A stretch of 64,000 bases of DNA from Terasakiella sp. SH-1 (lineage in GTDB: Bacteria > Pseudomonadota > Alphaproteobacteria > Rhodospirillales > Terasakiellaceae): contig NZ_CP038255.1 in NCBI RefSeq assembly GCF_004564135.1, forward strand, positions 900,501 to 964,500, in the 5' to 3' direction. Shown one piece after another: positions 12,399 to 53,168 of this stretch. The translations under genes and the position numbers were made by a program. The notes under the pieces are model-generated. The model did no database searches. It was given only the letters and a program-made list of their open reading frames with translations, and was not told the DNA's origin. How positions within the stretch are numbered: the stretch's first letter is position 1; every line of letters begins with the position of its first letter.

Positions 12399-12929
12399 AT
12401 GCGTATTTTAAGAAATACGGGAAAACACAGTAGTGAAGGCATTGCCAAAGTTATGGGTAAATCGGAATTCCTTAAGGAAATGAAGGTCGATGGCGTGACC
12501 TTTATCATCCGTGATGCGGATGAAAAAGACTTGCCTGCTGTTACTGACCTGCATGCCTATAATACCGGACAGCATAAGCCTGATTACTGGGCTGAAACCT
12601 ATCATCGCTATGGGGATTCCAACGAGGGCTTTTTCTATGTCTGTGAAATTGATGGTACTTTTGCAGGCTTTATCATTGGTGAAGTGCGCGCCTGGGAGTT
12701 CGGTTCAGAACCTTGTGGTTGGGTCTATACCATTGGGGTGAACCCGGAAATGCGCCTTAAGCAAGTGGGGACCCGTTTGTTTGAAACCGTCTGTGAACAG
12801 TTCCGCAAGGCAGGTGTGGGGCAGGCCCGTACCATGTTGCATCGTAAAGATAACCTGAACCTTAGTTTTTTTCGAAGCCAGGGCATGATGGGTGGTCCTT
12901 ACATCGAACTTGAAATGCCGCTGGATTGA
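12399..12929 (+). CDS. GNAT family N-acetyltransferase
   Basis: A single-domain acetyltransferase of 176 residues, or fewer if translation starts at the later ATG at 12453. The GNAT fold is indicated by IIRDADEKDLPAV at the start, a beta strand with FAGFIIGE, then VYTIGVNPEMRLKQVGTRLFE, which is the acetyl-CoA loop with a poorly conserved Q/R-x-x-G-x-G/A form (RLKQVGTRL), and FFRSQGM near the end. Substrate unknown. The Rrf2 regulator follows after 10 bases, so the pair is likely one operon. Confidence 0.8.
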   Translation: MRILRNTGKHSSEGIAKVMGKSEFLKEMKVDGVTFIIRDADEKDLPAVTDLHAYNTGQHKPDYWAETYHRYGDSNEGFFYVCEIDGTFAGFIIGEVRAWEFGSEPCGWVYTIGVNPEMRLKQVGTRLFETVCEQFRKAGVGQARTMLHRKDNLNLSFFRSQGMMGGPYIELEMPLD

Positions 12930-12939
12930 GGGACATGGT

Positions 12940-13380
12940 ATGAAACTTCAAAAAGCGACATATTGTGCTCTTTATGCGGTTCTGGAATTGGCCCGTGATC
13001 CAGATGTACAGCTTTCCGCAACAGATATTGCTGAAAAATACAATATTTCCGCCAATCATTTGGCGAAGGTTTTGCGGGATCTGGGCCGGGCCGGGCTGGT
13101 TGAATCTGTCCGTGGGGCAGGCGGGGGCTATCGTTTTTCCGGTAATTTGAAACGCACCACTCTTTTTGATGTGATCCATCTTTTTGAAGATGTCGGTGGG
13201 GAAAATGAGCGCAGCCGTGATGCGCAGGCCGATACAGATATTGGTAATGCACTGAATATGGTGCTGACAGAGATTGACGAGATTGCCCTTGCGACCCTTG
13301 GGTCCATTACGATTGGCACCTTGTTGAAAACCATGCGCTGGCGTAATGAACGTGCAGAGCGTGATGAGGCGAAAGCTTAG
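12940..13380 (+). CDS. Rrf2 family transcriptional regulator without the Fe-S cysteines
   Basis: The 146-residue protein starts at the ATG at 12940 (MKLQKATYCALYAVLELA), the classic Rrf2 beginning with a winged helix (IAEKYNISANHLAKVLRDL, then a wing with GAGGGYRFS). The region that carries the three cluster-binding cysteines in IscR and NsrR has none here, so it is unlikely to bind an iron-sulfur cluster in that way. Its stop codon is TAG, and the last base belongs to the repeat element inserted immediately after it; without the insertion the stop would be TAA. Probably regulates its own operon with the GNAT gene. Confidence 0.88.
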   Translation: MKLQKATYCALYAVLELARDPDVQLSATDIAEKYNISANHLAKVLRDLGRAGLVESVRGAGGGYRFSGNLKRTTLFDVIHLFEDVGGENERSRDAQADTDIGNALNMVLTEIDEIALATLGSITIGTLLKTMRWRNERAERDEAKA

Positions 13381-13646
13381 GGCGTAAACTCATAAAATAG
13401 ACTTGCTTTGGTTTCCCTAAAATATAGGCAAGACAAGGCAAAGGCTTGCAGGAAGTACTTGTACTTTCAAAAGACTTTAACGCAGTAATGCCTATATTTT
13501 AGGGAAATCCCGTAAGAGACGGGATGTATTTGAGGATAGAGCTGCGTTATAAAACCCTTAAGGTGCTTGCACTTCTGCGGGGTTCATGCCTTGTCTATCC
13601 TCAAATACATCTCCGCCAAACAAGTCTATTTTATGAGTTTACGCCC
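13380..13646 (-). mobile_element. three-armed MITE-like repeat, family 1 copy A
   Basis: A 267 bp non-coding element flanked by TA at 13378-13379 and 13647-13648. Its 26 bp ends (GGGCGTAAACTCATAAAA...) are inverted repeats. Inside are two further long inverted repeats, forming two hairpin arms. It is the reverse complement of the copies at 41681 and 52867. The TA duplication and small size suggest mobilisation by an IS630/mariner-type transposase, which is not in this window. Confidence 0.9.
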
Positions 13647-13777
13647 TAAGAGAAAAGAGCCGTAATCTTTGGTTGCGTTATAAAAAACGTGATAAGTCCT
13701 TCAAAAACAGATAGACTATTTATATCTGAATAGGAACAGGTCTTATCGGTTTTTAACCTAAAGCTGGAGGTGCGTCT

Positions 13778-24044: not shown

Positions 24045-25245
24045 CTAGGGAGCCGGAAAGAAAAGTAAAAAGGCGCTGAGGGTAAACAGCGAGATCATTG
24101 TGGTTAATAGAATCGAGTTCCCCGCGATGCGATCTCCTACGCCATATTTTGTGGCAAAGATGAAGGCATTGGCACCGCTGGGCATGGCGGCACCTAATGT
24201 CGCAATCATGGTCCATAGCGGGGATGTTTGAAGAATGTAAGTGCAGGTCAGCCAAACCCCAAGAGGCATGATCACAAGTTTGGCAAGAGTGACCAGCAGG
24301 ACGGGTGTTCTGGTTTCTTCCAGTCTTAAAGCGTATCGGGCCATGCCGCCACCCACGACAAAAAGAGCGCAGGGCGGAGCGGCTTTGCTAAGCAGTTCAG
24401 TTACCCGATCAATCAAGGAAGGAAGTTCTGCTTCGCTTAATGAAAACAACCAGCCAGAGATTAAGGCGATGACCAGCGGGTTGGTTATGACACTTTTTAC
24501 AGCACCAGCGATGATGACACCAATATTGGCATTGGGGTTGCGTCCGGTTTCGATCATTACGCAGGGCAGGGTAAACAGGATCATGGCGTTAAAGGTGATC
24601 AGGGTCATCAGTGGAGCAAGGGCCTGAGGCGGGTAGGCCGTTTGTACGATGGGCAGAGCGATGAGGGCCAAGTTGCCAAAACTTGCTGAAATTCCAGTAA
24701 CGATACTGCGCTCATAACCTACAGCTCTTTTCTCTAAATCTGACCCGTTTCATGGAGCCTTAATCTGTGCTTGAGTTAGGAAAATTGTGCAAAGCGATGC
24801 GGGGCATCGGTTAAGCAAATTGACGCGACACAAGCACAGATAAGGCCCACCGGAGGCGTTTATCTCAAACAATGTGGAGGGCGGCACCTTCCATTTGCGG
24901 TGAATAACACCGCTGCATGCAAGGTTTCTACCCACATTGTTTGAGATAAACGTGAAAGCAAGTCAGATTTAGAGAAAAGAGCTGTATTTTGCGCATAAGG
25001 ACATAGGTTCCCAGTAAAATCGTAACCCCCATGCCGTAATAAGACAGGAGAATAGAGAGTTCCAGACGTTGGGTCATGACCCCGCTGGCAGAGGTGCGAA
25101 ATAACAGGGAGGGAACAGCAAGATAGAAGATAAAGCGCGTCAGGTCATCAACGCCGCTTTGGCTGAATAAGCCACGCTTGACCATGAAATAGCCAAGGCC
25201 AATGAGGGCAAAAACGGGAAGAATAACATTCAGGACCTGATACAT
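24045..25245 (-). pseudogene. AEC (auxin efflux carrier) family permease, split by a repeat element
   Basis: The N-terminal 87 or so codons (25245 down to 24985) encode the start of an AEC permease (VLNVILPVFALIGLGYFMVK). The rest lies at 24719-24045 (GISASFGNLALIALPIV onward). Between them sits a 263 bp element with a duplicated TA. Removing the element and one TA joins the halves in frame as ...VLMRKI-GYERSIVTG..., about 312 residues, the normal family length. As it stands the N-terminal part ends inside the element (at 24928) and the gene is probably inactive. Confidence 0.88.
24722..24984. mobile_element. three-armed MITE-like repeat, family 2
   Basis: A 263 bp non-coding element between TA dinucleotides (24720-24721 and 24985-24986). 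Its ends are 23 bp perfect inverted repeats (CAGCTCTTTTCTCTAAATC...). Inside, a 15 bp inverted repeat with one bulge (24758-24773 with 24831-24845) and a 21 bp perfect inverted repeat (24857-24877 with 24932-24952) form two arms. Each arm loop has an apical hairpin (CGATGC/GCATCG and GCGGTG/CACCGC). Primary sequence differs from family 1 but the layout is the same. Confidence 0.88.
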
Positions 25246-41662: not shown

Positions 41663-41680
41663 TGCGTTGCCTTGCTCCTA

Positions 41681-41947
41681 GGGCGTAAAATCATAAAATA
41701 GACTTGTTTGGCGGAGATGTATTTGAGGATAGACAAGGCATGAAACCCGCAGAAGTGCGAGCACTTTAAGGGGTTTATAACGCAGCTCTATCCTCAAATA
41801 CATCCCGTCCCTTACGGGATTTCCCTAAAATATAGGCATTACGGCGTTAAAGTCTTTTGAAAGTACAAGTACTTCCTGCAAGCCTTTGCCTTGTCTTGCC
41901 TATATTTTAGGGAAACCAAAGCAAGTCTATTTTATGAGTTTACGCCT
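41681..41947 (+). mobile_element. three-armed MITE-like repeat, family 1 copy B
   Basis: 267 bp between TA dinucleotides (41679-41680 and 41948-41949). Terminal repeats 41681-41706 and 41922-41947 pair with two mismatches. Arm 1 is an 18 bp perfect stem (41716-41733 with 41787-41804) and arm 2 another (41820-41837 with 41898-41915). Apical hairpins AAGTGC/GCACTT and AAGTAC/GTACTT sit in the loops. A small hairpin ATCCCGT/ACGGGAT links the arms. Confidence 0.92.
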
Positions 41948-41953
41948 TAATAG

Positions 41954-41993
41954 AAAAAAAGCCCCTCGGGATCACGGGTCACGCCCGAGGGGC
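41954..41993 (-). terminator. Rho-independent terminator of pyk
   Basis: GCCCCTCGGG (41961-41970) pairs with CCCGAGGGGC (41984-41993); seven T residues follow on the minus strand. Confidence 0.88.
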
Positions 41994-42069
41994 AAGTTGC
42001 CTGCGCTCTCATTCTAGGGAGACGAAAAAACACAGGTGTATTAAAAATATATTGTTGCTGTGAACGCTT

Positions 42070-43491
42070 CTATTGCACCTCTGCAATGCGAAGAATATTT
42101 GTGGTACCTGCACTCCCAAAAGGGACACCTGCGGTGATGACCACACTGTCACCGACGTTAACAAAGCCTTTGTTTTTGGTAAGTTCCAGGGCGATTTGAA
42201 CCATTTCACTGACATTTGTTGCATCACTACATACAATCGGGGCAATGCCCCAGCCAAGGCAGAGTGATCTTGCCACTTGCAGATCATGGGTCAAGGCAAT
42301 CACCGGGGCTTCGGGGCGCTCACGTGCAGCCCTTAGCGCTGTTTTTCCCGATGTGGAGTAACAAATCACCGCCTGTGCCTCAATTGTGGAGGCCACCTGG
42401 CGGGCAGCTGCACTGATGGCATCTGTCTTGGTGTTTTCTGTTTTGTTACGCGACGCATCCATCAAGGAACGATGTAACGGGTCTGTTTCGACTTCACGAA
42501 TAATGCGTGACATCAACGAAACGGCCTCAACCGGATAATCCCCGGCGGCTGTTTCCGCCGACAGCATCACCGCATCCACGCCGTCATAGACTGCTGTTGC
42601 AACGTCAGAGGCTTCGGCCCGTGTTGGGGTTGGGGTGTTGATCATGGTTTCAAGCATCTGGGTTGCCACAATAACGGGGCGGCCACGGTTGCGGGCATAA
42701 GAGATGATTTTCTTTTGAATTGCAGGGACTTTTTCTGGCGGTAGTTCTACACCGAGGTCGCCACGGGCGACCATCACCGCATCGGTTTCTTCAATAATGG
42801 CGGCAAGGTGGTCGACTGCATTTGGTTTTTCAATTTTCGCAATGACTTGGATGCGCCCACCGGCAAGCTCTCTCAGTTCTTTTAGGTCTTCAGGGCGTTG
42901 TACAAAAGATAGCGCCACACTGCCAATGCCTTGTTCAAGGCCAAAGGCCAGGTCGCGTTTATCCTTATCAGTCATAGCTGACACTTTAATTTCTGAATCT
43001 GGAACACTGACGCCTTTGCGATCAGAGAGATATCCGTCAACTTCAGCCTTGGTTACGGCATAACCGCTGCCAACCTCTGTCACCGTCATGATCATTTTGC
43101 CATCGTCAATTAACAAACGGTTGCCAATGGACAATCCTTGCAAAATTTCTGGATGGGGCATGTACACACGCTCTTGCGTGCCCGGTTTATCCTGTAAATC
43201 AAACCGGAAAGACTCACCAGCTTTCAAATGGATTTTTTGATCAGTAAATGTCCCCAGACGGAACTTTGGCCCCTGTAAATCCATGAAAAGGCCAAGGGGA
43301 CGATCAAGTTCCTTTTCAGCCTGACGCACGGCCTTGATACGTGCAGCATGTTCGTCATAATCACCATGGGAGAAGTTTAAGCGAAAGACATTGGCCCCTG
43401 CCTTTGCCAGTTCCAGAATTTTCTCGACTGAGGAGCTGGAGGGGCCAAGGGTGGCGACGATTTTGACTTGTTTTGAGGGGGCGTTTGTCAT
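42070..43491 (-). CDS. pyk: pyruvate kinase
   Basis: Transfers phosphate from phosphoenolpyruvate to ADP. The 473-residue enzyme has KIVATLGPSS, NFSHGDYDEH, MDLQGPKFRLG, AKIEKPNAVDH with the catalytic lysine, MVARGDLGVELP, ATQMLETMI and DAVMLSAETAAGDYPVEAV, followed by the C-terminal allosteric-type domain. It looks fully functional. It lies downstream of a divergent enolase and a phosphotransferase gene on the same strand, separated from enolase by 97 bases that contain a strong hairpin. Confidence 0.97.
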   Translation of the reverse strand: MTNAPSKQVKIVATLGPSSSSVEKILELAKAGANVFRLNFSHGDYDEHAARIKAVRQAEKELDRPLGLFMDLQGPKFRLGTFTDQKIHLKAGESFRFDLQDKPGTQERVYMPHPEILQGLSIGNRLLIDDGKMIMTVTEVGSGYAVTKAEVDGYLSDRKGVSVPDSEIKVSAMTDKDKRDLAFGLEQGIGSVALSFVQRPEDLKELRELAGGRIQVIAKIEKPNAVDHLAAIIEETDAVMVARGDLGVELPPEKVPAIQKKIISYARNRGRPVIVATQMLETMINTPTPTRAEASDVATAVYDGVDAVMLSAETAAGDYPVEAVSLMSRIIREVETDPLHRSLMDASRNKTENTKTDAISAAARQVASTIEAQAVICYSTSGKTALRAARERPEAPVIALTHDLQVARSLCLGWGIAPIVCSDATNVSEMVQIALELTKNKGFVNVGDSVVITAGVPFGSAGTTNILRIAEVQ

Positions 43492-52858: not shown

Positions 52859-52866
52859 CTTTCCTA

Positions 52867-53132
52867 GGGCGTAAACTCATAAAATAGACTTGTTTGGCGG
52901 AGATGTATTTGAGGATAGACAAGGCATGAAACCTGCAGAAGTGCGAGCACTTTAAGGGTTTTATAACGCCGCTCTATCCTCAAATACATCCCGTCCCTTA
53001 CGGGATTTCCCTAAAATATAGGCATTACGGCGTTAAAGTCTTTTGAAAGTACAAGTACTTCCTGCAAGCCTTTGCCTTGTCTTGCCTATATTTTTGAGAA
53101 ACCAAGCAAATCTATTTTATGAGTTTACGCCC
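52867..53132 (+). mobile_element. three-armed MITE-like repeat, family 1 copy C
   Basis: 266 bp, same orientation as copy B. Left flank TA at 52865-52866; right flank TG, so one side of the target duplication has changed. Both arms are present, though the end of arm 2 (TTTTTGAGAAACC) and the right terminal repeat carry extra mismatches, suggesting an older copy. Confidence 0.9.
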
Positions 53133-53168
53133 TGATGCACCATTCCAAGGCTAGAGGATATTTCCCCT

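Follow-up and report, generated by a model that had tools for sequence, protein, structure and literature searches.

The element at 41681-41947 of the window (the whole 64,000-nucleotide stretch from Terasakiella sp. SH-1 analysed here) is best understood as a short, non-coding transposon with ends of the IS5 type and an interior made of two head-to-head copies of a ~98-nt hairpin unit. Searches with arm models show this unit to be common to elements with many different ends in Alpha-, Beta- and Gammaproteobacteria, the Correia elements of Neisseria included. The four-step explanation developed below, in which a non-autonomous element mobilised by an IS5-type transposase would carry a lasting arm module whose arms act as RNA, appears moderately probable when taken as a whole. 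The features concerned are the following, R2 being the broader of two arm models, R1 and R2.

41679-41949, + strand: element copy 2 with the flanking TA on each side; 11 near-full-length copies in the genome
41681-41709, + strand: left terminal inverted repeat and outer stem of the fold, with an IS5-type end (GGGCGTAAA..) that occurs in near-same form on IS5-family elements
41710-41807, + strand: arm A of copy 2, a conserved hairpin unit of ~98 nt (R2 match of 77.0 bits)
41808-41819, no strand: small hairpin TCCC-TTAC-GGGA at the centre, separating the two arms and read from the sequence letters; helix 5 of the structure
41821-41917, - strand: arm B of copy 2, the same hairpin unit placed head-to-head with arm A (R2 match of 73.4 bits; the arms align)
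41918-41947, - strand: right terminal inverted repeat and outer stem of the fold
13378-13648, - strand: element copy 1, flanked by TA left and right; its arms span 13410-13506 (+) and 13520-13617 (-)
52865-53134, + strand: element copy 3, in which TG replaces the right TA; its arms span 52896-52993 (+) and 53007-53103 (-)
24720-24986, + strand: third-subfamily element with ends TACAGCTCTTTTCTCTAAATCTGAC and a two-armed fold, interrupting a Mem_trans (PF03547) gene

The preliminary description had placed three copies at 13380-13646, 41681-41947 and 52867-53132. All of these positions were confirmed, between TA dinucleotides that are intact in two copies, as had been stated, and altered on the right of copy 3, where the change is read from the ending in CCCTG. 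Terminal inverted repeats of 26 bp had been claimed as well; the ends are indeed paired, with one mismatch carried by the right end of copy 2, and the folded outer stem exceeds 26 bp. One more element built in this way, absent from the earlier list, lies at 24720-24986, and its arm A (24751-24849) is the sole arm that R2 reports there. The idea that all copies are intergenic does not extend to the whole family, given that the copy at locus L005 is located inside a gene. Counting copies in the host genome (3.83 Mb, single contig), as had been proposed, revealed 11 near-full-length elements of type 1 (ends GGGCGTAAACTCATAAAATAGACTTG) at 96-100% identity, together with two one-armed type 1 copies (98% and 96% identity) and fragments. 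Six full copies make up a second subfamily, whose ends read GGGTCAGGACCTnTTAATTTACTGAG and whose interior is built alike. Four arms detected by R2 represent a third subfamily, three of them lying elsewhere in the genome at C1:1009317, 3287890 and 3326171. Two copies of this subfamily were examined in full, the window element at 24720-24986 being one, and both have ends TACAGCnCTTTTCTCTAAATCTGAC. End types 1 and 2 together have 17 full copies, and 15 of these are flanked by TA left and right. Flanks other than TA, which the preliminary description had named as grounds for giving up its reading, are one-sided in the two exceptions (left GA in L004, right TG in L025) and look like later mutation. 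The portrayal of a MITE more elaborate than usual, with a TA target, no coding frame and no recognised named family, fits these results. No Rfam family beyond tRNA and tmRNA, the latter of the alphaproteobacterial type, reached its gathering score in the window, and BLASTN of the element against plasmids gave no match. A first TIR2-pattern scan of the genome contigs had returned 0 matches. The right flank of L003 (G000:C1:3348203 onward, G000 being the window's genome) reads TAGGGTCAGAGTCTATCAATTTAATGAGTTTGGCG, a lone TIR2-like end adjoining a TIR1 element.

Insertion occurs into TA, with duplication of the TA, as established from an uninterrupted L005 site and from a transporter frame of the window that is open once the element and one TA are removed. 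The empty L005 site in sister species G001 is uninterrupted and has a single TA (79% identity over 121 bp); the host gene, response-regulator-like by eye, has a stop-free frame of 271 codons when joined versus 107 when filled. Two frames of the window, of 105 and 208 aa and both PF03547, flank the 24720-24986 element, and their joined flanks without this element and one TA give an open frame of 320 codons. At the L017 site, by comparison, two relatives align only roughly. In the first step of the explanation, which is strongly supported, an IS5-type transposase would move the element into TA, duplicating it; supply of this transposase in trans is proposed because the element ends are IS5-family ends. 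Transposition of the element in trans is what we infer.

Concerning the partner, sister Terasakiella species carry IS copies of ~850 bp whose ends resemble those of the element. At the left end, 20 of 22 positions agree with one of the two main end types of the window's genome and 21 of 23 with the other; the right ends match less well, with 5 mismatches in 22 and 3-5 in 23. The two IS copies tested encode IS5-family proteins (PF13340 together with PF01609, NF033580). A total of 41 TAGGNCGTAAACTCATAAAAT ends came from 40 titled stretches. An inward-pointing IS5-type transposase lies less than 1 kb inside 28 of them, a count that becomes 21 of 34 when T. pusilla, the source of a query and of 7 of the 28, is left out. 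For 7 of the 13 ends with no IS5 match, the contig stops less than 300 b inward; the other 6 leave enough space for a transposase and still gave no match. On a Shinella plasmid, an annotated IS5 transposase adjoins an end like that of L106; a second element end was looked for beside it and not found. The preliminary description had pointed to an IS630/mariner-type MITE, that is, to an IS630 partner with GGGCGTAAAC ends. The TA target duplication agrees with such a partner, and next to the Azotobacter copy the annotation lists a gene of the IS630 family, so that relatives with other ends might use a transposase of this kind. Near-same ends, however, lie on IS5-family elements in Terasakiella and other Alphaproteobacteria, and for the Terasakiella element we regard the IS630 assignment, unsupported by the 28 of 41 count, as highly improbable. 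A PF13340 search for an autonomous partner in the window's genome returned two partial matches only, one of them below the cut-off, with no clear TIR1 or TIR2 end near either; the partner IS copies lie in other Terasakiella genomes, and present mobility in the window's genome is put forward as a candidate property only. The draft contigs of T. pusilla (G002) break inside IS5-type copies (L040, L042, L053, L054), from which the IS5-type element is taken to be multi-copy in that species.

The element interior showed no similarity to three IS interiors representing two partner types (best E 0.78). An internal-deletion derivative of an IS, a possibility raised in the preliminary description, is accordingly rejected for the three IS copies compared. 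As the second step of the explanation, which these comparisons show for the partners found, the interior consists of two head-to-head ~98-nt units and not of deleted transposase DNA. The short, non-coding format, the IS5-family IS ends and the TA duplication are all features of known IS5-family MITEs. The present element differs from these in that its interior is not from the partner IS types found and in that its two-armed core is common to elements with unrelated ends.

The comparison of subfamilies shows that ends and cores did not travel together as a unit. The TIR2 elements of G000 and G001 are 94% identical in their ends and 72% in their cores, and with the ends left out, the cores of the G001 TIR2 elements have 75-80% identity to those of TIR1. 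In unrooted trees, G000 TIR2 joins L028, apart from G001 TIR2 (0.925 in FastTree, 88 in IQ-TREE), a grouping that is weak because L028 has a long branch. On account of the decoupling we infer an exchange of ends; the pattern fits end replacement, and constraint by the transposase on the ends contributes to it. A non-autonomous lifestyle other than the decay of one parent IS is suggested by this decoupling.

Copy 2, folded as a single strand, adopts the outer stem and two arms that the preliminary description had anticipated, and the fold is far beyond that of shuffled sequences (-128.8 kcal/mol, whereas shuffles averaged -62.6 with an sd of 4.75; z -13.9; 0 of 200 shuffles as good). A structural alignment (MAFFT) was prepared from 17 full elements of four genomes (G000, G001, G005, G025; 275 columns). 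Its RNAalifold consensus consists of the outer stem, two arms and the short central hairpin, with 97 pairs in total. Standard pairs fill 97.9% of the 1649 cells, and both-side changes with pairing kept are found in 54 of the 97 base pairs. The observed paired fraction and both-side-change count were reached by 0 of 500 shuffles, the count of further pair types by 46 of 500. When the 3' partner was slid by 1-3 columns, pairing fell to 37-48%, a comparison in which the structure has the advantage over the slid versions of having been derived from the same sequences. Each arm is a copy of one ~98-nt unit, the two copies facing each other across a short GC hairpin; 28 arms align, with both-side changes in 23 of 27 consensus pairs. 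The alignments thus show the pairing of the long stems to be kept by compensated changes.

R1 was built from 28 arms of Terasakiella and one relative, with no Neisseria in training. R2 rests on 40 wider matches, four of them Correia copies; R1 is therefore independent of Correia and R2 is not. Within the order, R1 matched 29 of 297 genomes (11 genera); at class level it matched 6 of 385 and at phylum level 13 of 398, 8 of these outside the class, with the window's genome included in each of the three sets. E-values of both models are rough and apply per genome, with ~0.5 chance match expected at 5e-4 over the 1,080 R1 genome searches, and the weakest single R1 matches (G465, G881) may for this reason be due to chance. 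In the order to which the Neisseria-like genome G402 belongs, R2 had matches (E up to 0.001 per genome) in 150 of 349 genomes, distributed over 73 of 147 genera. That R2 is not merely finding palindromes follows from its strand control, in which right-strand arms scored 40-89 bits versus 8-11 bits for wrong-strand readings, and from the equally background score of ERIC. Named carriers of the arm unit are Azotobacter chroococcum, a P. aeruginosa plasmid, Halomonas, Vibrio campbellii and Nitratireductor. A census of 83 chosen loci, mostly the best match per genome and with the window's genome excluded, contained 141 arms marked by R2. Adjacent arm pairs are head-to-head in 54 of 55 cases and tail-to-tail in 0; the remaining arms are single, and this one-armed class may include elements with a second arm below threshold. 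The sole exception, L112 at 1397-1597, has two adjacent arms of the same orientation, scored by the script as two singles. The outer ends vary widely (GGGTCAGGACC, GGGTCTGTTGACG, TATACCCAAG, AGTGTAGTGTTTCAC, TATAGTG and others). Since it is found under many different ends, the unit is regarded as a lasting module, and the third step of the explanation, shown by the model matches, is that elements with such differing ends have the arm unit in common, the one-armed Correia elements among them.

Correia elements (CREE / NEMIS) were encountered in G402, where two of 8 R1 matches were examined and found to be Correia copies, each beside a motif that we take to be the Neisseria uptake sequence. Four aligned G402 copies span the full R1 length at about 34 bits. 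A BLASTN query with one G402 copy matched N. gonorrhoeae (93.8%) and, partially, Cupriavidus metallidurans; R1 also finds Correia in N. gonorrhoeae along the full model length. The likeness consists in one ~98-nt arm that fits R1 over its full length, in TA at the ends and in the lack of an annotated gene under one named copy. In contrast to the Terasakiella element, the Correia copies examined have one arm, with the stem continuing into the ends, and these ends are TATAGTGGATTAA. The 26-bp Correia inverted repeat (tatagtggattaa..) was looked for at the ends of the Terasakiella element and is absent, the ends being GGGCGTAAACTC... With the Correia core matched and the Correia ends absent, the Terasakiella element is a relative and not a member. 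To our knowledge, the origin of Correia elements is open. An origin would be explained if the hairpin unit were an old, transposase-independent proteobacterial parasite that borrows the ends of whichever TA-targeting transposase its host has, swaps them in the course of time, is usually arranged head-to-head and has Correia as its one-armed descendants, a proposal for and against which we see the chances evenly balanced. Correia elements are called unique to Neisseria in the available text of a 2016 paper (PMC5039591), with which the link to Terasakiella contrasts. A literature search, with most subscription journals outside its reach, found no relatives outside Neisseria, and searching by element end sequences gave relevant matches solely on Neisseria; a search by variants of the Correia name led to one paper, on an unrelated subject. 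The placement of Correia in a Proteobacteria-wide family supplies comparative data in the form of conserved loops, covarying stems, two-armed relatives and partner IS types, and it makes the function and the missing transposase testable in harmless hosts.

Two further systems invite comparison. CIR of Caulobacter and Brucella similarly has two arms and a linker, as far as described in the available text of PMC2229807, and in the table of that source it is without terminal inverted repeats. GANTC is at the CIR terminal loop and in 0 of the 17 elements here, so that identity with CIR is rejected. The ERIC / IRU elements of enterobacteria are likewise small, with inverted repeats and TA at their termini, according to the same partial source (PMC2229807). 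In contrast to the arm unit, two E. coli copies of ERIC gave no R1 match at E up to 1 and 10.4 bits with R2, which is background, and ERIC as a one-armed member is rejected on this evidence.

As regards what the arms do, the fourth step of the explanation supposes that they act as folded RNA, which on its own we consider possible, if somewhat doubtful. With the two units facing each other, transcription from either flank would yield RNA in which one arm reads in its conserved direction. This sense arm could be recognised by RNases of the host or by some other factor, neighbouring genes would be buffered against the insertion, and the element would persist and spread. Two features speak for the RNA role: the strand specificity of the conserved letters, and the head-to-head arrangement, which provides a sense arm either way. 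The RNA role is favoured also because RNase III cleavage of Correia-containing transcripts is reported, at the terminal repeats and not the loops, in the portion of PMC10969869 available, which further describes an influence of Correia repeats on gene expression in Neisseria. The position of this cut is a point against the RNA role; in one-armed Correia, the terminal repeats cut by RNase III form the arm stem.

Alternatively, the arms could act as DNA, with a single-stranded or cruciform fold that joins the ends or recruits a host hairpin-binding protein and so raises transposition. The maintained stem pairing accords with this, and so do the young age of the 11 two-armed copies (96-100%) and the old appearance of one arm-less copy. 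Yet geometry alone needs neither the strand specificity of the conserved arm letters nor the conservation of unpaired bases among them, one-armed copies (96-98%) and the second arm-less copy look young too, and ordinary MITEs transpose without arms; a DNA role thus seems rather unlikely. The reduced copies comprise the one-armed L019-L022 and two arm-less copies, each of 63 bp including both TA (L009). One arm-less copy (L009 926-990, and L055 of G005) follows, by eye, apparently the same gene in G000 and G005, and for this reason looks old. The second has near-perfect ends and looks young, as do the one-armed type 1 copies. With both young-looking and old-looking forms present, age does not settle the need for arms in spread; one-armed copies at 96-98% are as young as two-armed ones, and two arms are therefore not strictly needed to move or persist.

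Compensated changes can also have hairpin-templated repair as their source. The arms might accordingly be passengers, their imperfect palindromes corrected by template switching and no function served beyond their own persistence. Across the 11 copies, with ~1.5% variants per paired site, 5 cells changed on both sides versus 0.27 expected from independent changes are in line with such correction; these represent 4 distinct changes, 2 cells having one shared change, and 10 of the 26 one-sided cells still pair. Correction, however, leaves unexplained why unpaired letters are conserved, why the length stays nearly constant at ~98 nt and why adjacent pairs are head-to-head across classes, and passenger status is in our judgement improbable. 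The RNA role of the arms remains the favoured reading.

Lastly, the surroundings of the window copies afford some minor observations. A promoter scan around copy 2 found none; terminator-like sites there number five versus 1.3 expected, all of them left of the element. Just to the right of copy 2, at 41961-41994, is a GC-rich hairpin (GCCCCTCGGG..CCCGAGGGGC), absent from the list of the terminator scan, with a T run next on the - strand; it may serve to terminate the - strand gene 42070-43491. Copy 1 gives the stop-codon bases of ORF 12892-13380, Rrf2-like by eye, through the TA and the first G of the element (13378-13381).
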